45,724 nucleotides of DNA from a virus, in IMG/VR virus record IMGVR_UViG_3300010150_003189, positions 1 through 45,724 of that record. One strand, written 5' to 3'. Positions 3,889-45,724 of the stretch are shown in pieces. A program made the translations under genes and the position numbers. Each line of letters opens with the position of its first letter. The first letter of the stretch is position 1. The notes beneath the pieces were generated by a model, which did not search any database, was not told the origin of the DNA, and was given only the letters and a program-made list of their open reading frames with translations.

Positions 3889-3896
3889 TATTTATT
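3889..3896 (-). promoter_or_regulatory. Late-type promoter motif AATAAATA (minus strand)
   Basis: Read on the minus strand the sequence is AATAAATAC, one base off the GATAAATAC motif used elsewhere in the window. It sits about 28 nt upstream of the S74 fibre gene, the same distance as other late promoters here, and the fibre is expected to be late. Confidence 0.55.
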
Positions 3897-3906
3897 AAAT
3901 AATGCT

Positions 3907-4461
3907 ATGCTTGTAATTGGCAACGGTGAAACTAGATATAACATTGATTTAGGTCTGTTTAGAGATACTAAAATAGGATGTAATGCCCTGTATAGAGATT
4001 ATGCAGTGGATCATTTAGTCTGTTGCGACAAGCGAATGGTCAAAGAAGTACTAGAAGCAAACACATTTAAGGGTACTTTATATACCCGTAAAGACTGGTT
4101 TGAGGATTTCAAAGGAGTTGAGTGCTTACCCGACTTACCTTACAAAGGTACAGCAAGACCAGATGATCCTTGGCATTGGGGCAGTGGTCCTTTTGCTGTA
4201 CTAATTGGAGCAAGATTAGCATATGAATGGAAAGAAACAGTTAACCTAGTAGGGTTTGATTTGTACAATGGAAATATTTACAAGGATACTAAGAACTATG
4301 CTAAATCAGATGCAAGGCCAGTAGATCCTAGTTATTGGATACACCAGATGAACAAAGTATTTGAACACTTCCCTAGTGTTACGTTCAATTATTACTCTAC
4401 AGAAAAATGGCCAGATAAGTACTATAACATAAAGAATTTTAATTTAGAGGAACTTAAATGA
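3907..4461 (+). CDS. Conserved phage protein, MptE/MAF-like Rossmann candidate
   Basis: The protein opens with MLVIGNGETR, a glycine-rich loop after a beta strand, and has later segments WGSGPFAVLIGA and VNLVGFDLYNG. This layout resembles the DUF115/MAF_flag10 (MptE-like) group, whose members include pterin diphosphokinases and flagellin-glycosylation factors; the match is from memory of motifs and is weak. I chose ATG 3907 because it begins at the conserved core; a TTG at 3886 would add seven residues. Neither start has a clear Shine-Dalgarno. The gene heads the oxygenase/QueD/glycosyltransferase cluster and overlaps the next gene by 4 nt, so a sugar- or pterin-related role fits the context but is not shown. 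Confidence 0.6.
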   Translation: MLVIGNGETRYNIDLGLFRDTKIGCNALYRDYAVDHLVCCDKRMVKEVLEANTFKGTLYTRKDWFEDFKGVECLPDLPYKGTARPDDPWHWGSGPFAVLIGARLAYEWKETVNLVGFDLYNGNIYKDTKNYAKSDARPVDPSYWIHQMNKVFEHFPSVTFNYYSTEKWPDKYYNIKNFNLEELK

Positions 4462-5108: not shown

Positions 5109-5691
5109 TGGACCGTTTAGGAAAGCAAACTATCCTCTCTTTCCTACACTAGTACAAGTTTACAATTTACAAGATAACCCTAGTAACATTGACATAATCA
5201 ATTACATTGACGAGCAAGAATTAACTGAATGGCCAAAAGACATTGGTGATGGTTCTTCAACTAGTCAAAACGAAATGAACATTCTTGATAACTTTGATAT
5301 TAAAAAAGATATTGAAAATTGTGTAAACGAATATTGTATTGATGTTGGACTAGACAAATTAGAAATTGGAAAGAGCTGGATTAATATACAAAGACAGAAA
5401 GGCTACATTGCTAGGCACAGACACGAACTTAGTATTATTAGTGGAGCATACTATCCATTTGTAGAACCAAACAGTTCACCGTTAGTTTTTGGAAGTCCAA
5501 TACTAGGACCTAAAATGGGCGAGATACATAACCAAGCTACAGAATATACTGCTAACGAAATGGAATTTGATGTACGTACAGGCTTTCTTGTATTGTTTCC
5601 AAGTTGGTTATATCATTATACAATTCCAAACCCTTCATTAAAACGAGTAACCTTAAGTTTCAATACATACCACAAAACACTTGACAAGTAG
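5089..5691 (+). CDS. 2OG-Fe(II) oxygenase-like protein (second of tandem pair)
   Basis: A 200-aa paralogue of the preceding gene with the same blocks in the same order: HRHE at 110-113 followed by LSIISGAYYPFV, GFLVLFPSWLYH (His176) and KRVTLSFN (Arg186). I start it at ATG 5089, 9 nt after an AGGA; a TTG at 5080 is possible. The two copies have diverged strongly outside the motifs, so the duplication is not recent. The last codons and stop contain the -35 box of the next promoter. Substrate unknown. Confidence 0.75.
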   Translation: MKAQIVDGPFRKANYPLFPTLVQVYNLQDNPSNIDIINYIDEQELTEWPKDIGDGSSTSQNEMNILDNFDIKKDIENCVNEYCIDVGLDKLEIGKSWINIQRQKGYIARHRHELSIISGAYYPFVEPNSSPLVFGSPILGPKMGEIHNQATEYTANEMEFDVRTGFLVLFPSWLYHYTIPNPSLKRVTLSFNTYHKTLDK

Positions 5692-5709
5692 TAATTTTTA
5701 ATATATAAT
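5681..5709 (+). promoter_or_regulatory. Consensus sigma70 (early) promoter ahead of queD
   Basis: TTGACA (5681-5686), 17-nt spacer, TATAAT (5704-5709): both boxes perfect. The -35 box overlaps the last codons of the upstream oxygenase gene. Expected +1 is 5716-5717, at the ATG of a short leader ORF. Confidence 0.8.
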
Positions 5710-5716
5710 ATTACAC

Positions 5717-5797
5717 ATGTTAGAGGACTTTTATGCGTCGACCCTCTTTAAATACTCCGCCGTTATACTTATAGGAGAAGAATATGGCTTATTATAG
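5717..5797 (+). CDS. Possible 26-codon leaderless leader ORF
   Basis: ATG 5717 sits within 1 nt of the start expected from the perfect promoter at 5681. The frame MLEDFYASTLFKYSAVILIG continues for six more codons and stops at 5797, overlapping the queD start by 14 nt. It could be a translated leader that couples to queD, or a chance ORF in a 5' UTR. No homologue is recognised. Confidence 0.3.
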   Translation: MLEDFYASTLFKYSAVILIGEEYGLL

Positions 5798-17903: not shown

Positions 17904-17911
17904 GATAAATA
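17904..17911 (+). promoter_or_regulatory. Late promoter GATAAATA
   Basis: The motif starts 26 nt upstream of the 912-aa fibre gene (ATG 17930) in the 33-nt gap after the previous gene. Confidence 0.65.
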
Positions 17912-22203: not shown

Positions 22204-23826
22204 ATGGCTGAATATATTGTAGTTACAGAAAAAGGTATAGACGTTGCAGTAGTTGATACTGATTTACAAAGAGATACATCAACTGATGATTCTGTTAACA
22301 GTAGTCTTGTACCTGATAGAATTGTACCAGTAGTTAATGCTAGGCCTGCTAATAACAGAATGACGCATTATGATCTTACTGACGAAGAAGCCGCGGCATT
22401 ATCAAATGATCCAAGAGTGCTATCAGTAGCAGGTGTTCCAGACAAAGAAACACAAGAACTGTATGCTACACAAAATGCAGAATTTCAAAGAAGTTTTACA
22501 AACGGTTCAAATAGTGTTAACTGGGGATTAGATAGACATACTGATCCAGACTTAACTTACAATTCATCAAGCACACGTACAGCTGATTATAATTATACAC
22601 TAGACGGAACAGGTATTGACATGGTTATTCAAGACGATGGTGTACAAGTTGATCATCCTGAATGGGAAGATGCAAACGGAGTAAGTAGATTTCAACAAGT
22701 TGATTGGTATGAACTAACAGGATTAGCAGGAACAATGCCTAGTAGCTTTTATGCTAACACATCAAATGATACAAATGCCGCAGGTGCTCATGGAAGTCAT
22801 TGTGCAGGAATTGCCGCAGGTAAAACATACGGTTGGGCAAAGAATGCAAAAATTTATTCAATGAGAATCTTTGGTGGAAGTAATCATAGTATCGATACTG
22901 ATCGTTATGATTTAATTAGATTATTCCACGAACAAAAACCAGTTGATCCAGATACAGGATTTAAACGTCCTACTATTGTAAATCAAAGTTGGGGGTATAG
23001 TTGGTATTATAGAAATGGTTCTTTTGGTTCTGCACAAGTACAATCAATTTTTTATAGAGGCGTTGATCAAAGTATTGCGGCACAGCAATGGACAAGTGGA
23101 ACATTTTCACAATACGGTGCAGTAGCAAGTAGACATCCAATGTCATACACACCAGCTGATGTTGAACAAGAACAATTAACTGATGCAGGAGTAATATGTG
23201 TCAAAGCCGCAGGCAATGGATATCATCCATGTGCTGGTTCTTCCGCAGGAGAATATGCTGATACAATATATGACAGTTACTATACACTTAATGAAACATG
23301 GGCTAGTTATATTACTGCTGGTAATCCTATATACTATAATAGACCAAGTAGTCCACATTCATTAGACACAATATGGGTTGGCAACATGGCGGCTGATCAA
23401 TATGGTTCAGAAGAATTTTTAAGAGAAGATAGTGAGCGTGGTGCTAGACTAGATATCAATGCCGCAGGTGAACAAATTACAAGTGTTACAAGTGGTGCAT
23501 CTACATACAGTACTAAACAAGCATACCCAGGTAATAGCAGTTATTATATTGCAAGAATTAGTGGAACAAGTATGGCGGCTCCGCAAGTAACAGGAATGGG
23601 TGCTTTATGGTTACAAGCAAACCCAGGTGGTTCAGCGGCGGACTTTAAGAAGTTCTTAGCAAATAGTTCAAAAGAAGATTTATATGATAGCGGAAACGCT
23701 GACAGTTTTAATGCTAGTAATAACATTCCTAGATTATATGGTGGTACACGTAAAGTAGCGTACTGGCCTTATAATAGTCCAAACAACGTTAGCTACAAAG
23801 GTACTAGCGGTAGTGGACAAGGATAA
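22204..23826 (+). CDS. Subtilase-family serine protease (S8), intact triad
   Basis: The 540-aa protein has an I9-like prodomain (1-80) and all subtilase elements: Asp144 (MVIQDDGVQVDHPEW), His196 (AHGSHCAGIAAGK), Asn338 (KAAGNGY) and Ser456 (SGTSMAAPQVTG). No signal peptide is seen, so it is either used inside the cell or carried on the particle. It is the closest relative of the preceding gene, 2 nt away. Lying between fibre genes, it may cut structural proteins during assembly or attack host surface proteins at infection; the sequence does not decide. Its stop codon is part of the next late promoter. Confidence 0.88.
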   Translation: MAEYIVVTEKGIDVAVVDTDLQRDTSTDDSVNSSLVPDRIVPVVNARPANNRMTHYDLTDEEAAALSNDPRVLSVAGVPDKETQELYATQNAEFQRSFTNGSNSVNWGLDRHTDPDLTYNSSSTRTADYNYTLDGTGIDMVIQDDGVQVDHPEWEDANGVSRFQQVDWYELTGLAGTMPSSFYANTSNDTNAAGAHGSHCAGIAAGKTYGWAKNAKIYSMRIFGGSNHSIDTDRYDLIRLFHEQKPVDPDTGFKRPTIVNQSWGYSWYYRNGSFGSAQVQSIFYRGVDQSIAAQQWTSGTFSQYGAVASRHPMSYTPADVEQEQLTDAGVICVKAAGNGYHPCAGSSAGEYADTIYDSYYTLNETWASYITAGNPIYYNRPSSPHSLDTIWVGNMAADQYGSEEFLREDSERGARLDINAAGEQITSVTSGASTYSTKQAYPGNSSYYIARISGTSMAAPQVTGMGALWLQANPGGSAADFKKFLANSSKEDLYDSGNADSFNASNNIPRLYGGTRKVAYWPYNSPNNVSYKGTSGSGQG

Positions 23827-23830
23827 ATAC
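23822..23830 (+). promoter_or_regulatory. Late promoter GATAAATAC
   Basis: The motif includes the stop codon of the second subtilase and starts 28 nt before ATG 23850. Confidence 0.7.
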
Positions 23831-25447: not shown

Positions 25448-25456
25448 GATAAATAC
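25448..25456 (+). promoter_or_regulatory. Late promoter GATAAATAC
   Basis: The motif starts 33 nt before ATG 25481, in the 46-nt gap after the YHYH gene. Confidence 0.7.
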
Positions 25457-29045: not shown

Positions 29046-29054
29046 GATAAATAC
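29046..29054 (+). promoter_or_regulatory. Late promoter GATAAATAC
   Basis: The motif starts 30 nt before ATG 29076, just after the stop of the Ig-repeat gene. Confidence 0.7.
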
Positions 29055-29665: not shown

Positions 29666-29890
29666 ATGGATCATCCACTACTATCAGATCTCTCGTCTTT
29701 AACAGACGAAGAAATATCAGAAAAGGTTAATAGCCTAACTCAAAAGTGGTTCCAAACTAGAAATCCCGAAGCTCAGTATCAAATCCAAACTATGTTAGAT
29801 ACATATAAATTAGAAATGATTGACAGATCGAGCAAATCAAAACCAGAAGATGGCAATAAAGATCTTGACAATCTTATCAACATAAGTTAA
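29666..29890 (+). CDS. Small conserved phage protein, 74 aa
   Basis: A short, highly charged and probably helical protein starting MDHPLLSDLSSLTDEEISEK. I recognise this pattern (DHPL...L..L...EL..K...L) from small conserved proteins of marine T4-type phages that have no assigned function. It follows the last structural gene by 11 nt with AAGG upstream. Its last 9 codons contain the -35 box and most of the spacer of the promoter for the next gene. Confidence 0.65.
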   Translation: MDHPLLSDLSSLTDEEISEKVNSLTQKWFQTRNPEAQYQIQTMLDTYKLEMIDRSSKSKPEDGNKDLDNLINIS

Positions 29891-29893
29891 AAT
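29865..29893 (+). promoter_or_regulatory. Sigma70 (early) promoter, leaderless start at 29900
   Basis: TTGACA (29865-29870), 17-nt spacer, TAAAAT (29888-29893). Counting -7 at 29893 puts +1 at 29900, the A of the next ATG. The -35 box lies inside the preceding gene. Confidence 0.68.
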
Positions 29894-29899: not shown

Positions 29900-30424
29900 A
29901 TGCTTATGAAAACTGATGACTTGGGTATCCCCAGATTTACAAACAAAGACTTAATTGATATGATCTATACAGGACATATCGACAAGTGTCATATTGTTCT
30001 TTGTGATCCAAGTGATGATATTGATAAGTTTAATACATTAGCACAGGATAACGGATTAGCAGGACTTAATACCTATATACCGTTAGATGTTGATAAAGAA
30101 GAATTTGATGAAACACTCCAAACAGACTGGTTTATGCCTGAAAAGTATAAAACTATGGACATTTATAATTACGTATTAGATAAGTGTCCTAACGATACTG
30201 CTAAAATGGCTAGAACTTGTGAAGAACTAACAGAGTACGATAGACGTAATATGTTTGACTTATTAAAGTATATGGTATATTTGGTAGACTTTATGCGTGA
30301 AAACGATATTGTATGGGGAGTGGGTAGAGGTAGTAGTGTATCCAGCTATGTACTATACTTAATTGGTGTACATAAAGTAGATTCCGTCCAGTTTGACCTA
30401 GACTACCATGAGTTCATGAGATAA
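29900..30424 (+). CDS. Truncated C-family DNA polymerase (DnaE-like) fragment
   Basis: The C-terminal third is clearly related to DNA polymerase III alpha: MARTCEELTEYDRR, a helix, then VWGVGRGSSVSSYVLYLIGV (139-158), the same place as the GPGRGSAAGS loop of DnaE, and FDLDYHEFMR. The protein stops at 174 aa, before the catalytic aspartates of the palm, and lacks the PHP domain, so it cannot be a polymerase by itself. I recall such short relatives in cyanophages. It may act as a decoy or modulator of host Pol III, or as a structural remnant. No Shine-Dalgarno is seen; promoter spacing predicts a leaderless mRNA. Confidence 0.75.
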   Translation: MLMKTDDLGIPRFTNKDLIDMIYTGHIDKCHIVLCDPSDDIDKFNTLAQDNGLAGLNTYIPLDVDKEEFDETLQTDWFMPEKYKTMDIYNYVLDKCPNDTAKMARTCEELTEYDRRNMFDLLKYMVYLVDFMRENDIVWGVGRGSSVSSYVLYLIGVHKVDSVQFDLDYHEFMR

Positions 30425-30428
30425 ATAC
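30420..30428 (+). promoter_or_regulatory. Late promoter GATAAATAC
   Basis: The motif contains the stop codon of the polymerase-fragment gene and starts 33 nt before ATG 30453, separating early from late expression at this junction. Confidence 0.7.
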
Positions 30429-31754: not shown

Positions 31755-31762
31755 AAAAGAGC

Positions 31763-31791
31763 TTGACTTTTCAGTAAAGATAGTTTATAAT
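31763..31791 (+). promoter_or_regulatory. Sigma70 (early) promoter, leaderless start at 31798
   Basis: TTGACT (31763-31768), 17-nt spacer, TATAAT (31786-31791). +1 falls on 31798, the A of the oxygenase ATG. The upstream GAGCTTGAC is shared with the promoter at 43576. Confidence 0.78.
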
Positions 31792-31797
31792 TAACTT

Positions 31798-32418
31798 ATG
31801 AACTATGATCTTGATAAAATAATAGTACTTGACGATGTGGTGCCACAATGGTTACATGACCAAGCCATAAGTCAAGTACTAAACACTCCAGTTAGTTACG
31901 GACACAGAGGATTAGGGCCTGATCAAGGTCACCCAATCTTTAGTCAACAATACACTCACGAACAAGTGGATAAAGCACCGTGGACTTTGAAAGCAGTTTG
32001 GCACGCTTTTGAACATCATAAACATATGATTGATGAAGATGTTGGCGATATACAATTAAATCAAATACAAATTAATCTTACTACAAAAGAACACACAGGA
32101 GCATTACACGTTGACAGTGGTGATGACGTACCTGCATACACAATGGTGTATCTTGTTCAAGGAGATACAGGTATGGACTTTTGGGATAACAATCCTGATC
32201 GTGGTGGAAAGAAGATTGACGAAGTAGAATACAAAGAAGGTAGATTAATAGTCTTTCCAAGTCGTTATATTCATAGAGGTATACCTACTAACAAAGTAAG
32301 TCCTCGTGTTACTGCTGGTTATGTGTTTAGTGGTAAGAGTACACAGTTTGCTAGAGACCGTAATATTGTATTACCTATATTTAAAAAGGAACAAGAGAAC
32401 TTTGCCTACCATAGATAA
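31798..32418 (+). CDS. 2OG-Fe(II) oxygenase (first of second tandem pair)
   Basis: The 206-aa protein has a canonical HxD...H...R set: His104 and Asp106 (GALHVDSGDD), His159 (FPSRYIHRG) and Arg170 (SPRVTAGYVF), the iron and 2-oxoglutarate ligands of prolyl-hydroxylase-like dioxygenases. A possible dimer or substrate segment GHRGLGPDQGHPIFSQQ is shared with the next gene. It starts without a Shine-Dalgarno directly at a promoter's expected +1. Substrate unknown. It differs from the pair at 4458-5691 and belongs to another subfamily. Confidence 0.8.
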   Translation: MNYDLDKIIVLDDVVPQWLHDQAISQVLNTPVSYGHRGLGPDQGHPIFSQQYTHEQVDKAPWTLKAVWHAFEHHKHMIDEDVGDIQLNQIQINLTTKEHTGALHVDSGDDVPAYTMVYLVQGDTGMDFWDNNPDRGGKKIDEVEYKEGRLIVFPSRYIHRGIPTNKVSPRVTAGYVFSGKSTQFARDRNIVLPIFKKEQENFAYHR

Positions 32419-33040: not shown

Positions 33041-33450
33041 CAATAGGTATTACATTTAGTAGTTTTGATTTGTTCCATAGTGGACATGTTGCTATGCTCA
33101 AAGAAGCAAGTGAAAATTGTAACTATTTGATTGTAGGATTACAAACAGATCCAACTATTGATAGACCAGAAAAGAATAAACCTATACAAAGTGTATTTGA
33201 ACGATATGTCCAATTAAAAGGTTGTAGTTATATTGATGAAATTATTCCGTATGCTACAGAACAAGATCTAAAGGATATACTGTTAACTTACACATTGAAC
33301 CGTAGATTTATTGGTGAAGAATACCGTGATAAAGAGTTCACAGGTAAGCAGATTTGTGTTGACAAAGGCATAGAATTGTATTATAATAAAAGACAACACT
33401 CATTTAGTACATCTAATTTGAGAAAACGAATAAGCGAGGCACAGACATGA
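33037..33450 (+). CDS. Cytidylyltransferase-like nucleotidyltransferase
   Basis: The 137-aa protein has the nucleotidyltransferase HxGH motif (His14, His17 in FHSGH), a VGLQTDPTID block, ERYVQLKGCSYIDEIIPY, and STSNLRKRI near the end, as in glycerol-3-phosphate cytidylyltransferase (TagD). Such enzymes join CTP to a phosphorylated alcohol or sugar. It overlaps the oxygenase by 4 nt and gp44 by 4 nt. The promoter for gp44 is embedded in its 3' third. The true substrate is unknown; with the oxygenases it could make an activated, hydroxylated building block (inference). Confidence 0.8.
   Translation: MTIGITFSSFDLFHSGHVAMLKEASENCNYLIVGLQTDPTIDRPEKNKPIQSVFERYVQLKGCSYIDEIIPYATEQDLKDILLTYTLNRRFIGEEYRDKEFTGKQICVDKGIELYYNKRQHSFSTSNLRKRISEAQT
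33359..33387 (+). promoter_or_regulatory. Consensus sigma70 promoter for the clamp-loader gene
   Basis: TTGACA (33359-33364), 17-nt spacer, TATAAT (33382-33387), perfect boxes inside the cytidylyltransferase gene. Expected +1 is 33394, 53 nt before the gp44 ATG. Confidence 0.72.
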
Positions 33451-34606: not shown

Positions 34607-34607
34607 T

Positions 34608-34928: not shown

Positions 34929-34930
34929 TA

Positions 34931-35260: not shown

Positions 35261-35262
35261 TA

Positions 35263-37622: not shown

Positions 37623-37652
37623 TAAGTTCCTCCTTCATGAGTTAATATAAAG

Positions 37653-37681
37653 ACAGTCACTGTAGATTCACAGTACTACTG
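37653..37681. promoter_or_regulatory. Two adjacent odd palindromes, operator candidate
   Basis: ACAGTCACTGT (37653-37663) and CAGTACTACTG (37671-37681) are each perfect inverted repeats around a central C, with centres 18 bp apart. They lie 31-59 bp upstream of the phoH start, just behind a TATATT box (minus strand). On the minus strand CTGTGAA-N4-CAGTGAC loosely recalls a Pho box (10 of 14 positions). Protein binding is inference. Confidence 0.35.
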
Positions 37682-37744
37682 CCCTACAAAAATATTTACC
37701 TCTGTACACACAAGACAAATCTGCGTAGTTATAGATCGTATCCG

Positions 37745-37753
37745 GATAAATAA
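37745..37753 (+). promoter_or_regulatory. Late promoter GATAAATAA
   Basis: The motif starts 34 nt before ATG 37779 in the divergent region after phoH. Confidence 0.65.
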
Positions 37754-37778
37754 GTGTATAAGAATAGGTGAAAACAAC

Positions 37779-38300
37779 ATGCGTGATGTATTAGATATTA
37801 TTACAAACATTGAAAGTATATACGAAAGTGATACTGCTTTAAGTGTTTTAAAAGACTTTGAACGTGTATTAGACGAATTAGATCTATATGTGTATGCTAA
37901 CTGGGAAGATGGCGAGTTAGTTGAGGGTCCTAAAATAGAAAGACATTGGGTTAAGGCTTCATTTATGTGGCCTAAGGACAAAATGCCTGATCCAGCAGGT
38001 GGTAAAAGACTGCTAGATTATGACTGTTATGTTTCGTATGAAAAAACAGCTATTTTAAAACCACGAAAAATTAAAGAACCAGACGATATTCGTCCAGGTA
38101 CTAAGAAGGGCAAACTAGATAGAGAACCAGTTTGGGTAGTAACTATTAAAATGCCGAAAGAACTTATATTAAATATCTATAGCGGATACAAAGAGCAGTT
38201 AGACTTCACTAAAGAACCAGCTGTTGCATCAACTCAACCAGCAGTTGACGATGTTGCACAAGAAGGTGAAACAGCCGCAGTTGAAGGCGGAGCAGTTTAA
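37779..38300 (+). CDS. Conserved T4-type marine phage protein, 173 aa
   Basis: The protein shows YVYANWEDGELVEGPKIERH, then a KASFMWPKDKMPDPAGGKRL block, GTKKGKLDREPVWVVTIKMP and a low-complexity Ala/Glu end. I recognise these blocks from proteins conserved across marine T4-type phages, but no function is assigned. A late promoter and AATAGGTG lie upstream. Its stop overlaps the next start by 1 nt, and the two genes travel together in relatives as I recall. Confidence 0.65.
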   Translation: MRDVLDIITNIESIYESDTALSVLKDFERVLDELDLYVYANWEDGELVEGPKIERHWVKASFMWPKDKMPDPAGGKRLLDYDCYVSYEKTAILKPRKIKEPDDIRPGTKKGKLDREPVWVVTIKMPKELILNIYSGYKEQLDFTKEPAVASTQPAVDDVAQEGETAAVEGGAV

Positions 38301-39010
38301 TGGGATTAATAGCTGGAGATCTAAACGACTTAGTATTACCTATATTTGAAATTGACAGTTTCAAATCAAAGATGGGTGATGACAAAGATATTGTAGTATG
38401 TAGCTTTAGTTGTATGTCTGAAGCACCTGCAAAAGACTTAATGAACTTCTTTGAAAAAGGATATTCATATGTACTTGATGCAGATGTTACTTCAGGAGAA
38501 CAAACTGATGGTACCTACAAAGTATTTGTAGAAATTGAACGCCACAAAGATGTTCCAAGTCAAATAATAGAAATGTTAGATGGTGTTGGTAAGTTAGCTA
38601 ATATAGATAAATTCAAATTTCGTTATTACAAAAGTTTCAAAAGTCAAGAAGCACAAATGGAAAACATTTCAGCAACAGTTCCATTAGACAAGAGTGCATA
38701 TGAAATCAAAGTAAACGAAAACAACATGGACAACTACAAGAACTTCTTTAATAAGAGTTACCTTGATAGTATAGACTTAAAAGAAGATAAAATTAAGTTT
38801 AGTAAGATATGGGCTGACACACTTACTTACAATGTTGTTGATTTTGGTAAAAGTAGTCACATAGAAACTACAATCACTGAAAAATATGATGTCAATTCTT
38901 TCGCAGAAATAATTTTCCTTACTAAATATATTGGAGACTACAATATATCCAAGTATGGAGATAATTTACTAATCGAAAATAATGGTTATACTGTTGTCCT
39001 AAAAAAATAG
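38300..39010 (+). CDS. Conserved T4-type marine phage protein, 236 aa
   Basis: The N-terminal half has GLIAGDLNDLVLPIFEIDSF with KSKMGDDKDIVVCSF, a YVLDADVTSG block and GTYKVFVEIERHKDVPSQII. The C-terminal half (from about 125) is a separate beta-rich region ending LLIENNGYTVVLKK. I recall relatives of the N-terminal part in cyanophages without assigned function; a virion role is plausible. It lies between a conserved hypothetical gene and the endolysin in a late unit. Confidence 0.6.
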   Translation: MGLIAGDLNDLVLPIFEIDSFKSKMGDDKDIVVCSFSCMSEAPAKDLMNFFEKGYSYVLDADVTSGEQTDGTYKVFVEIERHKDVPSQIIEMLDGVGKLANIDKFKFRYYKSFKSQEAQMENISATVPLDKSAYEIKVNENNMDNYKNFFNKSYLDSIDLKEDKIKFSKIWADTLTYNVVDFGKSSHIETTITEKYDVNSFAEIIFLTKYIGDYNISKYGDNLLIENNGYTVVLKK

Positions 39011-39021
39011 GAAACCATAAA

Positions 39022-39531
39022 ATGCAAGAAAATTACGATAAGTGTTTAGAGACAATTTTACACCACGAAGGTGGATATGTAAATCACCCTAGCGACCCAG
39101 GTGGGGAAACAAATATGGGTGTTACTAAAAAAGTTTATGTAGCGTTCGGCGGAACTAAGGATATGAAAGACTTAGAATTCGACGATGTTGCACCTATCTA
39201 CAGAAAAAACTACTGGGATAGAATGAAGTGCGATAACGTACCAGCAGGGTTAGACCTATGTTTATTTGACTTTGGTGTTAACGCAGGTACAGGTAGAAGT
39301 GCTAAATTTTTACAACGTATGATTGGAACTACTGCTGATGGCGGTATTGGACCAAACACACTTAAAAAATTAGCTGACTACATTGATACGCATGGACTTG
39401 AAGAAACCATTAAAGAGTTCCAAGAAGATCGTCAAGACTATTATGAAAAACTATCTACGTTTAAAACGTTTGGTAGAGGTTGGACACGTAGAGTAGACGA
39501 AACAACGGAACTTGCATTGTCAATGGTATGA
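39022..39531 (+). CDS. Endolysin, GH108-type muramidase with C-terminal PG-binding part
   Basis: The 169-aa protein has the glyco_hydro_108 signature at its N-terminus: LETILHHEGGYVNHPSDPGG with the likely catalytic Glu16, then TNMGVTKKVY. The second half (LDLCLFDFGVNAGTGRSAKF, then a DGGIGPNTLKKL block and GRGWTRRVDE) matches the PG-binding domain usual for this family. It cuts peptidoglycan glycan strands at lysis. There is no signal peptide, so it needs a holin. AGGAAA precedes the ATG. It leads the lysis cassette. Confidence 0.9.
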   Translation: MQENYDKCLETILHHEGGYVNHPSDPGGETNMGVTKKVYVAFGGTKDMKDLEFDDVAPIYRKNYWDRMKCDNVPAGLDLCLFDFGVNAGTGRSAKFLQRMIGTTADGGIGPNTLKKLADYIDTHGLEETIKEFQEDRQDYYEKLSTFKTFGRGWTRRVDETTELALSMV

Positions 39532-39668
39532 GCCAGTACTGCCAAAACTGCGGAAGACAGCACGAAGGTAGACTAATTGAAACGTTTACAGACGGTGATA
39601 ACAAACCAGTACAAGTTATCGTCTGTGAACAACATAGATATGAGGTGAAAGATGATAGGGTCGATTAA
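39528..39668 (+). CDS. Mini zinc-finger-like protein, 46 aa
   Basis: ATG 39528 overlaps the endolysin stop (ATGA) and the frame runs 46 codons to TAA at 39668, inside the start of the spanin gene. The sequence begins MSQYCQNCGRQHEG, and later VIVCEQHRYEV, so CxxC with CxxH can form one small zinc site. Tight overlaps on both sides support real translation. No family is recognised. Confidence 0.55.
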   Translation: MSQYCQNCGRQHEGRLIETFTDGDNKPVQVIVCEQHRYEVKDDRVD

Positions 39669-40137
39669 AATTGCAATAGTAATTATTATGATGGCCGGTG
39701 CCGGTGGCGGTGTTATGTATGTAAAAACACTAAAGTCTGACTTGGCTACATCAGAAGCAAACAATTTAAAGTTAGAACAAAGCGTTGAGGATCAAAAGGC
39801 AGTAATTGCACAAGCACAAGCTGACTTTGAATCACAAAAGAAAATTACAGCTAACTTAGATGCACAAAACAAAGCACTACAAGCCGAGTTTCAAGCATTA
39901 GATAAACGCTTTAATAAAATTAACGGTCGAGGTGAAGTACGTGACATTGGCAAACTTGCAGATGAACGTCCTAAATCAGTTGAACGTGTTATTAACGGTG
40001 CGACAGTAAAGGCAATGAGATGTGTAGAAATTGCTATGGGGTCGCCATTAACGGAGAAAGAGAAAAATGCTACTAAAAAGTCTGAAATCAACTCAGAGTG
40101 TCCTAGTATTGCTAATCCTAAGTACGTTCCTTATTAG
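39652..40137 (+). CDS. Inner-membrane spanin-like protein (i-spanin candidate)
   Basis: The 161-aa protein has one N-terminal membrane segment (about 4-24, SIKIAIVIIMMAGAGGGVMYV), then a long coiled coil (30-90) rich in Gln, Ala and Lys (EDQKAVIAQAQADFESQKK), and a C-terminal region with two Cys. This is the N-in, C-out layout of Rz-type spanins that bridge to an outer-membrane lipoprotein and fuse the membranes at lysis. Its 3' end overlaps a lipoprotein gene by 71 nt in another frame, as in Rz/Rz1 pairs. Confidence 0.72.
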   Translation: MIGSIKIAIVIIMMAGAGGGVMYVKTLKSDLATSEANNLKLEQSVEDQKAVIAQAQADFESQKKITANLDAQNKALQAEFQALDKRFNKINGRGEVRDIGKLADERPKSVERVINGATVKAMRCVEIAMGSPLTEKEKNATKKSEINSECPSIANPKYVPY

Positions 40138-40456
40138 TGGATGTAGTTCTGTTAAGCAACTAGAGATTTTTAAAACAGAAGTTCCTAGAGAACCTCTTGC
40201 GTTGCCTGAACCGTTAACTCCAAAACTAGAAGAACTCAAATGGACTATCATTACTAGCGAAAACGCTGATGAAGTATTTGAAAAACTTAAAGCGGGTGGA
40301 GTAGATCCTGTGTTATTTGGATTAACAGATGACGGCTACGAAGCTCTAAGTAAAAACTTTGCACAAATACGTGCATACATGCTACAGCAAGACGAAATTA
40401 TTAAATCTTATAAAGAGTATTACGAGTCTACAGACAAGAGTAAACCTAAGAAGTAA
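40067..40456 (+). CDS. Lipoprotein overlapping the spanin gene (o-spanin candidate)
   Basis: The 129-aa protein has a type II signal peptide: SVLVLLILSTFLISGC with lipobox ISGC and lipidated Cys26. The mature part is 104 residues, with PREPLALPEPLTPKLEEL and a helical C-terminus ending in Lys. It starts inside the i-spanin-like gene, in another frame, with GGAGAAAGAGAA upstream. A mature part this long and Pro-rich fits an outer-membrane spanin. Gram-negative host is implied. Confidence 0.68.
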   Translation: MLLKSLKSTQSVLVLLILSTFLISGCSSVKQLEIFKTEVPREPLALPEPLTPKLEELKWTIITSENADEVFEKLKAGGVDPVLFGLTDDGYEALSKNFAQIRAYMLQQDEIIKSYKEYYESTDKSKPKK

Positions 40457-40611
40457 TGCGTTTATGGACAGTCTTGTTGTTGGTTGTCCTACTGACCTCC
40501 TGTGCTAAAAATAAATGTTCTGTCCGTCCTGGTGCAGACGTTGATATTGATTCCCTTACAAAAGAAGGTATTGTAGTATCGCCCAAAGGCGAGATGACTT
40601 GTTCCTTCTGA
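40456..40611 (+). CDS. Small lipoprotein, 51 aa (Rz1-sized)
   Basis: ATG 40456 overlaps the previous stop (TAATG) and the frame ends at 40611. The N-terminus MRLWTVLLLVVLLTSC is a compact lipoprotein signal with lipobox LTSC and Cys16. The mature 36-aa peptide has two further cysteines (21 and 49). The size is like Rz1, so it competes with the previous gene for the o-spanin role. The stop TGA is part of the next late promoter. Confidence 0.68.
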   Translation: MRLWTVLLLVVLLTSCAKNKCSVRPGADVDIDSLTKEGIVVSPKGEMTCSF

Positions 40612-40618
40612 TAAATAC
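40610..40618 (+). promoter_or_regulatory. Late promoter GATAAATAC
   Basis: The motif overlaps the stop of the small lipoprotein gene and starts 33 nt before ATG 40643. Confidence 0.7.
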
Positions 40619-40642
40619 TAACATAATACACAGGATTACACT

Positions 40643-40930
40643 ATGATTGAAATGATAGAACGCATGGCTAGTGATAGACTATGGATATATACCGCACTTG
40701 CCGGCAGTATATTTGGGGCATTATTCATTGCATACATGAGAGATACACGTATTGCACTATGGGTATTCGGCAAATGGGACACACTTTTAGACAGTTTACG
40801 AGATCGCTTTGGTTGGACATGGTTTAACCAAGATCCAGATGCGTGGAAAAAGGTAAACCCAAACATTGCTCGTAAGATTGACGAGCTTGAATCACGTATA
40901 AAAACTTTAGAAACTAAAAGGAAGAAATAA
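40643..40930 (+). CDS. Single-pass membrane protein, 95 aa
   Basis: The protein has one membrane segment at about 13-31 (LWIYTALAGSIFGALFIAYM), an amphipathic middle with several Trp, and a charged C-terminal coiled coil (ARKIDELESRIKTLETKRKK). Its place next to spanins suggests a holin or lysis-control role, but the single pass plus coiled coil is also compatible with other functions. AGGA precedes the ATG and its stop overlaps the next start by 1 nt. Confidence 0.6.
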   Translation: MIEMIERMASDRLWIYTALAGSIFGALFIAYMRDTRIALWVFGKWDTLLDSLRDRFGWTWFNQDPDAWKKVNPNIARKIDELESRIKTLETKRKK

Positions 40931-42723
40931 TGTCAGCACAGGATGATAAGAACAGAGCAGAAGCCCAGAAGCGTGATGCTCAAAATCAAATAAACCAACA
41001 TAACTCAGAAAAAGCTAAAGCAGAAAATCAAAAGAAATCTGCACAACAAGAAGCAAACACAGCAAACACAAACAAAACACACGCACAAGAAGAACAAAAG
41101 ACTGCACAACAGCAACAACAGGCGGCTGAAGCGGCACATGATCAAGCAATTAAAGATCATGACGATGCTCTTGCAAAACAAAAAGAAGCAGATGATAATT
41201 ATGCGGCGGCACAGGCACAAGTTGCACAAGCTGAAGCAATGGTACAAGATGTATCAAGACCACAATACTCAATTCAAGTTGCTGACCACGCTGAAACATC
41301 AGTTGGTGAAACAGTAGGCGACGAACATGCAGGTGCTAGTTATGAAGCTGGTGCAAGTGCAAGTTATGACGCAAGTGCAAGTGCAGGTTATGAAGTAACT
41401 GACCACAGCGTTGCAGTTGGTGCTGAAGCAAGTGTACACGCAGAAGCAAGTGCAAATGCAGGTGCTGAAGCTCACGCTGAACAAGAAATTGTTCCAGGTG
41501 TAGATGCACACGCTGACGCAAGTGCTGAAGCAGAAGGTAAAGTAAGTGCAGATGCAGAAGCACACGCAAAAGCAAGTGGCGGTTGGGACGGCAGTGATGC
41601 AACAGCGGCGGCAACAGTAGGTGCAAGTGCAAGTGCAGATGCAACAGCAACAGGATCAGTAGATGGTAGTGTTGGTGTTGATACACCCTTAGGTGATGTT
41701 AGTGTTGATGCAGGTGCAGAAGGTACAGCAGGTGCTCACGCTGAAGCATATGCAGAAGCAGGTGGACATGCAAGTGTTGGAGAACATGGAGTTGACGTAG
41801 GCGGTGGTGCTATTGCAGGTGCTAACGTTGGAGTTGATGCTGAAGGTTCAGCACACATAGGCGGCGCTGAAGTAAGTGGCGGTGCTGGTGCAAGTATTGG
41901 CGGACAAATTGGTGCTCAAGGTTCTGCACACGCTACATACGAAGATGATACAATCTCGTTTGGTATTGATGGACAAGCGGCTTTGCTAGTTGGACTAGAT
42001 GTTGATGTGAATGTTGACATTGATATTGGACCACTAGTAGACGGTGCTAACGCTATTCTAAATGCAGGTGGAACAATGGACGAAGCATTGAACCATGTAA
42101 CTGATGGAATTGATCAAGCACAAGCAGAAGCAATGAAAGTTGCAAACCAAGCACAAGCGGTTGCTAAACAAGGCGAAAAAGTTGCAAAACAAACTGTAGA
42201 TGCATGTAACTCGGCAGTAAGTGCTACCGAAGATGCAATTAACCAAACTGGTCAAGCAATGACTGATGCGGCTAATGCAGTTGCACATTGGGGTAACGAA
42301 GTAGGTAAGTGGACTACAAGCGTATTTAATGCTAATAACGCTGTTAAAGCGGCTAACAGCACTATTAACGCATGTAACAGCGCCATTAATGCATGTAACA
42401 ACACTATTAATCAAGCAAATAATGCCATTAATAGTGCAACAAAAGCTATCAATGATGCGGCTAATGCAGTTTCTAATACAGCTAAAAAGGGTTGGAAGAG
42501 TGTTAAGAAATTCTTTTCAGACTCACGCTTAAAAGAAAATGTTGAATTTGCAGGCAAAGTCAACGGTATTAACACTTACACATATAATTATGTGTGGAAT
42601 AATGCAGTACAAACAGGTGTAATGGCACAAGAGCTATTAGAAACTAAGTATGCAGATGCAGTTGATACACACCCATCAGGGTATTATACAGTTAACTACA
42701 GTAAGTTACCTACTATAAACTAA
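40930..42723 (+). CDS. Ala/Gly/His-rich coiled-coil protein with S74 C-terminal domain
   Basis: The 597-aa protein has four parts. Residues 1-108 are a Gln/Ala/Lys coiled coil. About 109-345 is low-complexity sequence of short ASA, AHAEA and GGA repeats with many His and Asp. About 370-520 is an Asn/Ala-rich helical region with heptads such as AINACNNTINQANNAINSAT. From about 530 comes an S74 chaperone domain (SDSRLKENVEFAGKVNG, then TGVMAQELLETKYADAV). The S74 end implies a trimeric fibre that matures by self-cleavage. AAGGAAG precedes the ATG. A terminator follows directly. Confidence 0.72.
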   Translation: MSAQDDKNRAEAQKRDAQNQINQHNSEKAKAENQKKSAQQEANTANTNKTHAQEEQKTAQQQQQAAEAAHDQAIKDHDDALAKQKEADDNYAAAQAQVAQAEAMVQDVSRPQYSIQVADHAETSVGETVGDEHAGASYEAGASASYDASASAGYEVTDHSVAVGAEASVHAEASANAGAEAHAEQEIVPGVDAHADASAEAEGKVSADAEAHAKASGGWDGSDATAAATVGASASADATATGSVDGSVGVDTPLGDVSVDAGAEGTAGAHAEAYAEAGGHASVGEHGVDVGGGAIAGANVGVDAEGSAHIGGAEVSGGAGASIGGQIGAQGSAHATYEDDTISFGIDGQAALLVGLDVDVNVDIDIGPLVDGANAILNAGGTMDEALNHVTDGIDQAQAEAMKVANQAQAVAKQGEKVAKQTVDACNSAVSATEDAINQTGQAMTDAANAVAHWGNEVGKWTTSVFNANNAVKAANSTINACNSAINACNNTINQANNAINSATKAINDAANAVSNTAKKGWKSVKKFFSDSRLKENVEFAGKVNGINTYTYNYVWNNAVQTGVMAQELLETKYADAVDTHPSGYYTVNYSKLPTIN

Positions 42724-42734
42724 GAAAAAACTAG

Positions 42735-42773
42735 AAAGGTTGTTCGATTTATTTTGGACAACCTTTCCTTTTG
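42735..42773 (+). terminator. Rho-independent terminator
   Basis: An 11-bp stem (42735-42745 with 42756-42766, AAAGGTTGTTC pairing GGACAACCTTT with one G.U) closes a 10-nt loop. CCTTTTG follows. It lies 12 nt after the S74 gene and just before the next late promoter. Confidence 0.8.
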
Positions 42774-42776
42774 ACT

Positions 42777-42785
42777 GATAAATAG
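42777..42785 (+). promoter_or_regulatory. Late promoter GATAAATAG
   Basis: The motif starts 27 nt before ATG 42804, immediately after the terminator. Confidence 0.68.
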
Positions 42786-42803
42786 TACAGTAGGAGAAAT
42801 AAA

Positions 42804-43244
42804 ATGAACCCTTTTGATCAATTTGGAATGGATCTAACAGATGTGTTAGCCCCATGGATAGCGATACTAATTAGTATCTCAGCGGCCTTTTGGTTTAAGG
42901 ACTTTGCACATAATTTAATGAGCGGACTAAAGTTCAAAATGAATCCTGCGTTTAATGAAGGCGATCATATTATACTAGATGACACTGATGCTATCATAGT
43001 TAAAATAGGGTTGCGTGAAAGTGTGTTTGGAGTTTACGGTGATCGTGGTTATACTTGGAGATATATTCCAAATGATCGTATTAAGTTTCACAAGTTAGAA
43101 AAAGTTATCAATAAAAATCTACACTTGGATTCTGAGGCTGAAAAAGGTAGACGCTTACAAGAAATGATTGATCAAGCACAGAGTGCTCAGATTAAGAATA
43201 ACAAAGATAACATAGAGAAAATTAAAAATGGAAAAAGAGATTAA
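42804..43244 (+). CDS. Miniature MscS-like membrane protein
   Basis: The 146-aa protein has one membrane helix at about 14-32 (LAPWIAILISISAAFWF), then FKDFAHNLMSGLKFKMNPAF. It continues with NEGDHIILDDTDAIIVKIGL and RYIPNDRIKFHK. The last two blocks match the TM3-to-beta-domain region of mechanosensitive channel MscS (PFxxGDxI, then IPN). TM1, TM2 and the large C-terminal cage are missing, replaced by a charged helix. A minimal ring of TM3-like helices could form a pore, so a holin-like or osmotic role is possible (inference). AGGAG precedes the ATG. Confidence 0.68.
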   Translation: MNPFDQFGMDLTDVLAPWIAILISISAAFWFKDFAHNLMSGLKFKMNPAFNEGDHIILDDTDAIIVKIGLRESVFGVYGDRGYTWRYIPNDRIKFHKLEKVINKNLHLDSEAEKGRRLQEMIDQAQSAQIKNNKDNIEKIKNGKRD

Positions 43245-43572
43245 AGAAATCAAAACTGATACTGAAGTGAAAGAAGATACTGCGGTAAAGAAAGTTAAAT
43301 TCGAACTAGAAGTAGATACTAATGTAGTTGATAGTGGTAAGAACCCTTATATGCATCTTATCTTTTTAGCAAGGGCTGTAGATGCATGGAGAATTTTTCC
43401 AAGAATCTTTTTATCAGTTTACATCTACTTACTGTATGATGTTACAACATGGTTTATGAACTTACCAGAACCTAACTTAGAGCAATCGGGTTTGGTTAGT
43501 ATTGTCGTTGGTGCAGGGGCGGCTTGGTTTGGTTTATATGCAGGTACTTCTAAGAAGAATCCAGACAAATAG
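43228..43572 (+). CDS. Two-pass membrane protein, 114 aa (holin candidate)
   Basis: A charged N-terminus of about 40 residues is followed by two hydrophobic segments: 54-76 (AWRIFPRIFLSVYIYLLYDV) and 86-106 (LVSIVVGAGAAWFGLYAG). The motif RIFPR with VGAGAAWFGLY recurs in small membrane proteins of marine T4-type phages. Two passes, small size and a position beside lysis genes fit a holin, but this is not demonstrated. It overlaps the mini-MscS gene by 17 nt. Confidence 0.62.
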   Translation: MEKEIKEIKTDTEVKEDTAVKKVKFELEVDTNVVDSGKNPYMHLIFLARAVDAWRIFPRIFLSVYIYLLYDVTTWFMNLPEPNLEQSGLVSIVVGAGAAWFGLYAGTSKKNPDK

Positions 43573-43575
43573 AGC

Positions 43576-43604
43576 TTGACAACAGCCTAAGATAAGTATA
43601 TAAT
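43576..43604 (+). promoter_or_regulatory. Consensus sigma70 (early) promoter, leaderless start at 43611
   Basis: TTGACA (43576-43581), 17-nt spacer, TATAAT (43599-43604): perfect. +1 falls on 43611, the A of the dnaJ ATG. Confidence 0.82.
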
Positions 43605-43610
43605 ACTACT

Positions 43611-44459
43611 ATGGATTATTACGAACTTTTAGGCGTTCCAAGAAACGCTACAGAATCAGATCTTAAGAAAGCATACAAGAAACAAAGTATGCAACACCAC
43701 CCTGACCGCAATGGTGGAAGTGATGCTAAGTTCAAACAAATTAATGAGGCATACTCAGCACTAAAGGATCCACAGAAAAGGCAAATGTATGACCAATATG
43801 GTACTGCTGATCCTCAACAAGCACAGGCACAACAGCAGAGTCATTTTTCAAATTCTTTTGGTGGTGCTAATTTTGAAGATATATTTGGACAAATGTTTGG
43901 AGGACAACCAAACATGCGTAGACAAATGCATAATCAAGATATAACTATTGCCGCAGATATTGATTTGGAAGATATCGTAAAAGGTAAAGATGTTATTGCT
44001 ACATATAGGCTACCAAGTGGCAGAGAAGAAACAGTAGAGATTAAACTTCCACGTGGTTGTAGACCAGGAGATAGGATACGTTATTCGGGTATGGGTAGCG
44101 ACTTACACCCACATGCTCCAAGAGGTGATTTGCACGTTCAGTTGCGAGTCAGAAGACACCCCGAGTACACTCAAGATGGCATAAATTTATATATAGACAA
44201 GAAGTTAAATTTATTTGATTTCGTTTTAGGCACAAACTTAACTATCAAAACAATCCACGATCGTACATTGAGTGTTAATGTACCAGCTGGATCTAACCCA
44301 GGCACAGTTTTTAGTATTGGAGGTCAAGGTTTACCTGACAGACGTTCAGGACAAACGGGCAACTTATACATTAAAGTATTAGGTGTAACACCTAAAATAA
44401 ACGATGAGAAAATTAGAGAACAGTTAAGAAGAATACAAGATGAAACTAAAACTACTTAG
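43611..44459 (+). CDS. dnaJ: DnaJ/Hsp40 co-chaperone, type II (no zinc finger)
   Basis: The 282-aa protein has a J domain (1-66) with HPD at 30-32, a short Gly/Phe/Gln linker (HFSNSFGGANFEDIFGQMFGG) and a DnaJ C-terminal substrate domain (ITIAADIDLEDIVKGKDV, then VNVPAGSNPGTVF). It lacks the Cys-rich zinc region and so resembles CbpA. It should steer host DnaK. No Shine-Dalgarno is visible; the ATG coincides with the expected transcript start. It overlaps the deformylase gene by 20 nt. Confidence 0.92.
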   Translation: MDYYELLGVPRNATESDLKKAYKKQSMQHHPDRNGGSDAKFKQINEAYSALKDPQKRQMYDQYGTADPQQAQAQQQSHFSNSFGGANFEDIFGQMFGGQPNMRRQMHNQDITIAADIDLEDIVKGKDVIATYRLPSGREETVEIKLPRGCRPGDRIRYSGMGSDLHPHAPRGDLHVQLRVRRHPEYTQDGINLYIDKKLNLFDFVLGTNLTIKTIHDRTLSVNVPAGSNPGTVFSIGGQGLPDRRSGQTGNLYIKVLGVTPKINDEKIREQLRRIQDETKTT

Positions 44460-44967
44460 ATACCCAGATCCATTTTTAAACAAAAAGGTTGCACCTTTTG
44501 ACTTTGATAAGCATGATGCTAAACAAATCGAAGCTGAGATGATTGAACTAATGACTAAAGAAAATGGTGTAGGATTAGCGGCAACACAAGTTGGTCTTGA
44601 TGCACAAATATTCATTATCAAACCAGAAGGATTAGAAGGGTACGAAGACAATAAACCTTTCGCATTAATTAATCCTGTGATTACAGCCGTAAGTCAAGAA
44701 ACTGTACTAGGTGAAGAAGGTTGTTTAAGTTTTCCATTATTGTTCTTTAAAGTTAAAAGACCAACAGGAATGGTAATAGAGTGTCTTGACTCTAGCGGTA
44801 AAGAGTGTACAATAGAGTTAGTAGGTTGGAATGCAAGAATTGCAGGACATGAATACGATCACTTATATGGAATCAACTATGTTGATCGTGTAAGTAAATT
44901 AAAACTCGACATTGCTAAGAAAAAGCAATCAAAATTATTAAAAAGATTTGGAGCCTATATAAAATAA
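44440..44967 (+). CDS. def: Peptide deformylase
   Basis: The 175-aa protein has the three deformylase motifs: GVGLAATQVG (43-52, Gln50), EEGCLSFP (Cys95) and GHEYDHLYG (His137, Glu138, His141). Cys95 and the two His bind the metal, and Glu138 is the catalytic base. It removes the formyl group from new N-terminal Met residues. Length is the full bacterial type, with a basic C-terminal tail. It is translationally coupled between dnaJ and the ClpA-like gene. Marine phage deformylases are well known. Confidence 0.94.
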   Translation: MKLKLLRYPDPFLNKKVAPFDFDKHDAKQIEAEMIELMTKENGVGLAATQVGLDAQIFIIKPEGLEGYEDNKPFALINPVITAVSQETVLGEEGCLSFPLLFFKVKRPTGMVIECLDSSGKECTIELVGWNARIAGHEYDHLYGINYVDRVSKLKLDIAKKKQSKLLKRFGAYIK

Positions 44968-45724
44968 TGGTAGAACCTAGCGAAAATTTACAGAAAATAT
45001 TTGACAAAGCATTAGATGTAACTAAGAAACTTAATCACGAATATCTTACACTAGAGCATTTGTTATTTTCAATGTTGTGCGAAGAAGACTTTTCAAACAT
45101 TGTATCAGGATTCAATCAAGTAGATCCAGAATTCATGAAAAAGAATGTTGAGAACTTTCTTAAAACAAAGTGCAACGACTTGTTAATGACTGACATTGAA
45201 AATCTTCCTAAGAAATGGAAGCCTAAGAAAACACAGGCAGTAGAACGTGTACTAAACAGAGCGTTTACACAAGTGTTGTTTAGTGGTCGTAACAGTATTG
45301 AAGTTACTGATGTGTTCTTAAGTATGTTTAACGAAAAGAAAAGCTGGGCATTATACTTTATTAACGAAGTAGGTATTGAAAAAGAAAAGTTTGCAGACTA
45401 TCTAAACAATGAGCTAGAAGCAAATTACGAAGATGAAGAAATGCAAGGCATGGCTAATCGTGCATTGCGTTCGTTTACAACTAATCTTAACGTTGATGCA
45501 GAAACAGGTAAGATTGATCCTGTTATTGGACGCTCAGAGGAACTTGAAAACATTGCACTAGCAATAGGACGTAGACAAAAGAACAACGTACTACTAGTTG
45601 GTGAACCAGGTGTAGGTAAAACTGCTATTGCAGAAGGACTTGCATACAATATTGTACAAGGTAACTGTCCTGAATTCCTTAAAGAATATAACGTATACAA
45701 TTTAGACATTGGTAGTATGTTAGC
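44967..45724 (+). CDS. clpA: ClpA-like AAA+ unfoldase, cut by the window end
   Basis: 252 codons are present. Residues 1-75 resemble the Clp N-domain (LQKIFDKALDVTKKLNHEYL, then TLEHLLFSML), which binds adaptors and substrates. After a linker come NLNVDAETGKIDPVIGRSEE, IALAIGRRQKNNVLLVGEP and Walker A GEPGVGKTA (about 211-219), all typical of the ClpA/ClpC D1 domain. It would unfold proteins for host ClpP, unless the missing C-terminus lacks the ClpP loop. The ATG overlaps the deformylase stop by 1 nt. It may redirect host proteolysis. Confidence 0.9.
   Translation, partial: MVEPSENLQKIFDKALDVTKKLNHEYLTLEHLLFSMLCEEDFSNIVSGFNQVDPEFMKKNVENFLKTKCNDLLMTDIENLPKKWKPKKTQAVERVLNRAFTQVLFSGRNSIEVTDVFLSMFNEKKSWALYFINEVGIEKEKFADYLNNELEANYEDEEMQGMANRALRSFTTNLNVDAETGKIDPVIGRSEELENIALAIGRRQKNNVLLVGEPGVGKTAIAEGLAYNIVQGNCPEFLKEYNVYNLDIGSML

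Follow-up and report, generated by a model that had tools for sequence, protein, structure and literature searches.

Predicted leaderless mRNAs from both sigma70-type and T4-type late promoters in a group of marine jumbo phages

Leaderless mRNA in a phage has a precedent in the Thermus phage phiYS40, whose middle and late mRNAs are described as lacking leaders (PMC3594737). The marine phages considered here resemble phiYS40 in having one class of phage mRNAs that would lack leaders. They differ in possessing two promoter classes, sigma70-type and T4-type late; phiYS40, for its part, has a Thermus host and is reported to raise IF2 and lower IF3 (PMC3594737). In Deinococcus-Thermus, mRNA without a 5′ UTR is likewise described from a -10 element about 6–7 bp before the ORF, but that account concerns cellular genes and stresses the -10 motif (PMC12340547), whereas here a near-consensus TTGACA is found at a fixed 17-nt spacer. 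A T4 late promoter is described as lacking a conserved -35 element and consisting of one TATA-like box, from which transcription starts roughly one helical turn downstream (PMC2988020). The late boxes of the marine phages share these features, and a gp55 homologue is also found in marine phages. Early and late promoter classes also occur in AR9, another jumbo phage; its 5′ UTRs, however, are given as 26–491 nt, so its mRNAs as described are not leaderless (PMC5312081). Among PMC titles and abstract openings, a scope that lies mostly outside subscription journals, no report was found of leaderless mRNAs from T4-type late promoters, or of one phage group that is leaderless via both early and late promoters. 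This suggests that, while leaderless phage mRNA is already known from phiYS40, the use of T4-type late promoters in this way is apparently unreported.

The stretch analyzed here (the window) comprises positions 1–45,724 of the IMG/VR virus record IMGVR_UViG_3300010150_003189 and is a piece of a jumbo-phage genome. G007, an IMG/VR contig of 267,783 bases, aligns to 91% of the window at 85% identity, and the clamp loader shares 57.6% identity with its counterpart in Pseudomonas phage PA5oct and in several related phages. A gp55-like late sigma factor is encoded in G007 (phrog_12791, 2.5e-74; T4 gp55 match, 1.9e-6), and T4 gp55 also matches in the contigs G033 (4e-8) and G028 (2.2e-6). A phmmer search with T4 gp45 (1e-3) matched T4, HTVC008M, and S-TIM4 and none of the marine contigs, a search that a diverged clamp could escape. 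Statistics were collected from 23 related jumbo-phage contigs (1.53 Mb), the less redundant subset of 41 sequences (40 contigs and the window), in which genes were called crudely, by ORF length. The first 40 kb of G017, G018, G019, G022, and G023 and the first 20 kb of G036 were read; G010 and G029 contributed the dnaJ locus only. Because some of the 23 contigs are still related, sites were also counted by protein family.

When bacterial and archaeal genomes were searched with the terminase, nine candidate stretches came up. Four were confirmed, in MAGs labelled Neomarinimicrobiota (two), Euryarchaeota (one), and Spirochaetaceae (one). Host assignment from these MAGs was set aside, as the stretches look like co-binned phage contigs. 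The Candidatus Neomarinimicrobiota MAG RS350 includes PBPT01000016.1 and PBPT01000082.1 (L264 and L265; 335 kb and 153 kb). The terminase in the RS350 contigs is 76% identical to that of G007, and these are probably phage contigs binned with a bacterium.

The initial annotation described three promoters in the window (29865, 31763, and 43576; Table 1), each with a 17-nt spacer and a 6-nt gap between the -10 box and the ATG. Coordinates and letters were right in every case, and the hexamers match consensus at 11–12 of 12 positions. TTGACW-N17-TAWAAT-N6-ATG has three matches in the 45.7-kb window; 100 dinucleotide-preserving shuffles contained no match (expected 0.00). The excess at 6 nt recurs in the 23 related contigs. 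A loose sigma70-like scan of positions 27000–45724 gave no excess (59 vs. a shuffle mean of 63.9); within that interval, the near-consensus sites alone stand out. Allowing spacers of 16–18 and gaps of 4–9 added one window site, at 5681. The 26-aa ORF that follows it may be a coincidence of the leader; the G007 counterpart of this promoter lies 6 nt ahead of a 29-aa ORF, with the promoter position kept and the peptide different. The perfect promoter at 33359 was rejected as a member of the leaderless class, having no abutting start codon. Rfam gave no match in the window at the gathering threshold.

The three genes had also been said to lack a Shine-Dalgarno sequence that most other genes in the window possess, and both statements hold. 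Their anti-Shine-Dalgarno duplex energies (-1.0, -1.0, and +0.4 kcal/mol) are the three weakest of 40, and 29 of the 40 reach -4 kcal/mol or better. These 40 come from 51 listed ORFs, with eight GTG/TTG starts and the ORFs at 10421, 35245, and 40067 excluded. The -10 box fills the Shine-Dalgarno place, and the absence therefore adds no independent evidence. Two words noted as shared by two of the promoters, GAGCTTGAC and AAGATA, had to be dropped as class elements, as they are not kept in relatives: at the -35 position, dnaJ relatives read TCTTGAC, ACTTGAC, GCTTGAC, or TGTTGAC, and AAGATA is retained in the near dnaJ relatives only. The protein family behind the 29865 promoter has 12 members including the window, with a gap of 6 nt in eight and 7 nt in four. 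Its DNA polymerase III alpha-like product is a short piece only, of a size kept in relatives (173 aa in G007).

Table 1. Promoters, late boxes, and associated genes (window coordinates unless a contig is named)
Feature	Position	Strand	Remark
Late-type box TTAAATA	3895..3901	+	5 nt ahead of ATG 3907
184-aa gene, late leaderless layout	3907..4461	+	ORF tool lists start as TTG 3886
sigma70-type promoter TTGACA-N17-TATAAT	5681..5709	+	7 nt ahead of ATG 5717
26-aa ORF	5717..5797	+	overlaps start of gene 5784-6230; peptide not conserved in G007
Ninth window GATAAATA, left unclassed	10410		3 nt before ATG, 18 nt before second in-frame ATG
Late box GATAAATA, Shine-Dalgarno leader	17904..17911	+	gene 17930
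Late box GATAAATA, leadered	23822..23829	+	gene 23850
Late box GATAAATA, leadered	25448..25455	+	gene 25481
Late box GATAAATA, leadered	29046..29053	+	gene 29076
sigma70-type promoter TTGACA-N17-TAAAAT	29865..29893	+	predicted +1 at 29900
174-aa DNA polymerase III alpha-like gene, leaderless layout	29900..30424	+	Pfam PF07733 1.4e-9; phrog_11127 5.2e-44
Late box GATAAATA, leadered	30420..30427	+	gene 30453
sigma70-type promoter TTGACT-N17-TATAAT	31763..31791	+	predicted +1 at 31798
206-aa 2OG-Fe(II) oxygenase-like gene, leaderless layout	31798..32418	+	weak match PF13640 6.6e-4, under family cut-off
sigma70 promoter, 12/12	33359..33387	+	inside gene 33037-33450; 59 nt ahead of clamp-loader gene 33447
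Late box GATAAATA, leadered	37745..37752	+	gene 37779
Late box GATAAATA, leadered	40610..40617	+	gene 40643
Late box GATAAATA, leadered	42777..42784	+	gene 42804
sigma70-type promoter TTGACA-N17-TATAAT	43576..43604	+	predicted +1 at 43611
DnaJ gene, leaderless layout	43611..44459	+	PF00226 1.1e-25; PF01556 1.1e-32
Micropeptide with consensus promoter	G007 193514-193552; G008 46915-46953; G011 34801-34839	minus	

The 23 contigs contain 196 strong sigma70 promoters (at least 11 of 12 matches, spacer 17), and for each, all ATGs downstream that open an ORF of at least 40 aa were considered. The gap to the ATG was 6 nt at 20 sites, 7 nt at four, and 5 nt at two; gaps of 1–4 and 8–11 nt accounted for zero or one site each. 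Seven sites had the ATG directly after the -10 box. Gaps of 12 and 13 nt (four and six sites) were in part second ATGs of the same genes, and a broad hump at 20–34 nt was formed by leaders, many of them with AGGAG-type signals. Reversed sequences yielded 29 strong promoters with no more than one per gap, and with a spacer of 16 or 18, only one or zero sites fell at the 6-nt gap. Counted by protein family (at least 10 of 12 matches, ORFs of at least 60 aa), there were 16 families at 6 nt vs. a mean of about 1.4 over the remaining gaps to 16. Across IMG/VR, an ORF of at least 60 aa is opened at 76 of the 117 distinct sites among the gap-6 matches listed (at least 120 stretches) and at 36 of the 87 among the gap-9 matches listed (86 stretches; at least 120 in all), a weak pointer. 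A conserved basic micropeptide of 19–22 aa (M[ST]RALKLRPKKLIK...) lies 7 nt downstream of a consensus promoter in three contigs (Table 1).

An unsupervised count of hexamers upstream of ATGs revealed a second, larger signal. TAAATA at 5 nt ranked top (89 vs. 7.2 expected), above every Shine-Dalgarno hexamer. Prominent signals also came from ATAAGTA at the same distance and from TTGACA at 29 nt. ATAAATA was found 55 times at 5 nt vs. three and five times at the adjoining positions, with a hump at 17–30 nt; the variants GTAAATA, ATAAGTA, and TTAAATA occurred 30, 25, and 14 times at 5 nt. By protein family, the late box gave 51 at 5 nt vs. a mean of about 6.4 across the other gaps through 16, and the stricter ATAARTA 33 vs. 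about 1.8. The late background of about six families per gap includes chance matches. GTG and TTG starts, counted by family, showed no peak, a result of little weight given the small expected number. The T4 late promoter consensus is TATAAATA, an 8-bp TATA box with a TAAATA core. The marine boxes keep the core ATAAATA and use the GTAAATA and ATAAGTA variants, but favor G (47%) in place of the first T of T4. They also differ in position: in T4, TAAATA lies mainly 23–29 nt before the ATG, with three occurrences and no peak at 5 nt, whereas the marine phages add the sharp 5-nt class. The window itself has one late box at leaderless distance (3895) vs. eight with Shine-Dalgarno leaders; the gene at 3907 belongs to a late-type family of four (23 contigs and window) that includes G007.

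Where proteins were looked up, late leaderless sites precede the terminase large subunit, a baseplate wedge subunit, and virion proteins, and early ones precede a primase, an exonuclease, a polymerase-like protein, and dnaJ. The baseplate wedge genes, listed as baseplate wedge subunit in PHROGs and in the records, are presumably gp25. The assigned functions fit the promoter timing, because terminase, baseplate, and virion genes stand on late sites and primase and exonuclease genes on early ones. These sites alter the picture of an early-gene class put forward in the initial annotation. Its sigma70-type members stand, and their early timing is a reading from the promoter type and the few assigned genes (primase, exonuclease, polymerase-like). 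The class was drawn too narrowly, however, as a larger gene set has the late box at 5 nt, and the restriction of the leaderless layout to early genes is rejected. The purpose suggested for it, immediate use of host 70S ribosomes, leaves the late-type genes unexplained.

The dnaJ gene, one of the supposed early genes, was followed across viral contigs. Of 54 loci, 51 were scored, several of them near-copies; L021 (start at locus edge), L052 (partial copy, early-type upstream), and L058 (66-residue match, GTG start) were excluded, and in L036, where the match begins at residue 2, the start was shifted to the ATG just upstream. All 51 relatives have a promoter at leaderless distance: late at 5 nt in 30, and early at 6 nt in 16, 7 nt in four, and 8 nt in one. 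The assignment of dnaJ to the early class therefore applies to some relatives but not to others, which are late-type. A tree built from 42 distinct proteins requires promoter class to have changed three times. Well-supported branches force two of these changes; the third depends on L055, a long branch of unsure placement. Class also varies, at leaderless distance, in the 2OG-oxygenase family (three early-type and two late-type among five, including the window) and in a nucleotidyltransferase-like family (one early, one late). The gap is class-specific, 5 or 6 nt, and would in each class leave the A of the ATG as +1. In the window clade of dnaJ, a late-type box GATAAGTA stands at 43591–43598, directly ahead of the -10 box and 12 nt from the ATG; dnaJ relatives have a box similar to GATAAGTA at 5 nt. 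The dnaJ early promoter may have arisen through a small insertion.

The promoter switches in dnaJ bear on whether TAAATA at 5 nt might, instead of being a promoter, serve as an AT-rich enhancer or ribosome-binding element in place of the Shine-Dalgarno sequence. The box does occupy the Shine-Dalgarno place, and AGGAGA likewise peaks at 5 nt. Yet dnaJ can instead carry TTGACA at exactly 29 nt, where a ribosome would not read it; the same box recurs 17–30 nt upstream of genes with a Shine-Dalgarno sequence and is then followed by an initiator step; and a late sigma factor is encoded in the genome. We consider a ribosomal element very unlikely.

Leadered promoters locate +1, because they are read without reference to a start codon. 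In the 23 contigs, 79 distinct leadered GATAAATA sites have a Y-R step at box+4/+5 in 70% of cases and elsewhere in 10–42%; for 45 leadered early promoters, the step at -10+5/+6 reaches 51% and elsewhere at most 44%. Y-A occupies the expected offset at 41 of 79 late and 23 of 45 early promoters, counts matched by none of 5000 shuffles in each class. For both classes, the initiator offsets of the leadered promoters are the offsets of the ATG in the leaderless-type genes. A pyrimidine immediately precedes the ATG at 127 of 128 late 5-nt sites and at 19 of 22 early 6-nt sites, compared with 324 of 850 Shine-Dalgarno genes. The initiator signal is not general, because the peak is missing in T4, whose 15 leadered late promoters have the Y-R step at box+4/+5 in 33% of cases and most often at +3/+4 (47%), and in an out-of-sample contig, where 27 leadered late promoters have 41% at box+4/+5, level with other steps.

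The lack of a sharp initiator step at the expected place in T4 and the out-of-sample contig would also be compatible with promoters that are real but start one to several nucleotides upstream of the ATG, producing very short leaders without a Shine-Dalgarno sequence. The 7- and 8-nt gaps in dnaJ relatives (4 and 1 of 51) point the same way, and sigma70 start sites shift by a nucleotide or two. We think such leaders unlikely: the peaks are one position wide (20 at 6 nt vs. 2 and 4 adjoining; ATAAATA 55 vs. 3 and 5), and the pyrimidine at -1 together with the leadered promoters of the 23 contigs indicates that the A of the ATG is +1. Gaps of 5, 7, and 8 nt do occur, and some leaders may be one or two nucleotides long. 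The proposal of the initial annotation that transcription begins at the A of the start codon, giving leaderless mRNAs, is strongly supported by the distance peaks, the initiator signatures, and the uniform layout of the 51 dnaJ relatives.

Among other phages, the cultured Pelagibacter phage HTVC008M has TAAATA at 5 nt as its top signal (12 vs. 0.43 expected). The genes behind it include a baseplate wedge gene (31132), the head completion gene (18943), the DNA end protector gene (18916, minus strand), and tail genes (one at 75830). Six of six starts looked up in its deposited annotation are the same ATGs. A pelagimyophage study describes the prediction of middle and late promoters by the steps used for cyanophages as unsuccessful (PMC7029224); the placement of the HTVC008M late box so close to the start codon, at 5 nt, may explain that outcome. 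A 611–683 aa protein with late leaderless layout is encoded in two distant phage groups, at HTVC008M 11972–13807 (phrog_35576) and at G030 14250 (scan coordinate); the N-termini look alike by eye. Xanthomonas phage XacN1, scanned over 340 of 385 kb, shows smaller excesses: eight and five late sites at 5–6 nt, and four and seven early sites at 6–7 nt, two of them repeats present in both ends. One annotated baseplate wedge gene is included, its annotated start agreeing. These annotations speak against the idea that the promoter-adjoining ATGs are wrong starts with true initiation downstream. Gene 29900 has another in-frame ATG at 29906, as that idea would have it, but the HTVC008M and XacN1 annotations agree at seven of seven starts looked up. 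The DnaJ start is well fixed, because the J domain spans residues 2–61, and one G015 gene opens ATGAAG, apparently at the second ATG of the others, with the promoter 6 nt before that ATG. Wrong starts are highly improbable, more so than a ribosomal element.

TAAATA at 5 nt was absent from the Synechococcus phage S-TIM4 (zero occurrences) and occurred once in RaK2 (100 of 346 kb scanned). PA5oct, closest in clamp loader among named phages, has five at 5 nt on a scattered background, a weak excess at most. Whole-record counts of ATAARTA-N5-ATG against the pattern read backwards, with no ORF requirement, gave forward:backward values of 10:2 in G007, 9:2 in HTVC008M, 11:6 in PA5oct, 4:1 in S-TIM4, 5:2 in XacN1, 3:3 in T4, 4:6 in RaK2, 5:9 in 121Q, 6:5 in Atu_ph07, and 0:1 in Phosso. 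An out-of-sample contig of 335 kb, found in the terminase search, has 17 late sites at 5 nt and nine at 4 nt; consensus sigma70 promoters are nearly absent from it, although the enrichment of TTGACA at 29 nt persists (6 vs. 0.54). Coincidence in AT-rich, compact genomes deserves mention, as the pattern was spotted by eye in a single window and the late background of about six families per gap is partly chance. For the class as a whole, it is excluded by the shuffles, the reversed sequences, the family counts, the conservation, and the out-of-sample sequence, and we give it the least credence of the explanations considered; individual sites may still be due to chance.

We regard it as very probable that leaderless mRNAs come from both early sigma70-type and T4-type late promoters and do not form an early-only class, a view that the missing initiator peak in T4 weakens slightly. 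Sequence statistics establish the promoters, the exact distances, the matching initiator offset of leadered promoters, and the conservation. In the mechanism we propose, promoters of the host sigma70 type would start transcription at the A of the ATG, so that the mRNAs are leaderless. Late promoters (ATAAATA, GTAAATA, ATAAGTA) 5 nt before the ATG of another gene set would likewise place +1 on the A and are probably read by the gp55-like late sigma factor of the phage. Each promoter class would come in two forms, leaderless or with a Shine-Dalgarno leader of about 12–28 nt. From the layout we infer the actual 5′ ends, the timing, translation from a 5′-terminal AUG, and poor translation from read-through mRNA. 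Because such mRNA offers no Shine-Dalgarno sequence to a gene of leaderless layout, and thus lacks a ribosome site, the gene would be poorly translated from it, and its translation would be tied to the firing of its own promoter.

A wider reading appears somewhat favored, with less assurance: a number of T4-related or jumbo phages of different groups would run a leaderless programme, early and late, for genes that include terminase, baseplate wedge, head completion, tail, dnaJ, and primase, with promoter-class switches that keep the mRNA leaderless and with gated translation. With similar, limited assurance, we put the distances to the AUG in this programme at 6–7 nt for sigma70-type and 5–6 nt for gp55-type late promoters.

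Leaderless translation has so far been studied mostly in cellular genes, for instance in Deinococcus-Thermus, and in a few phages. The phage group described here appears to employ it with two promoter systems, the T4 late system included; in T4 itself, the boxes of that system stand at distances that leave room for leaders. If gating is true, its possible benefit is that a gene would be made only when its own promoter fires and not from read-through RNA. For uncultured phages, the layout offers a simple rule by which start codons can be corrected and the time of expression guessed; it also predicts efficient translation of leaderless mRNA in the hosts of phages that have this layout.
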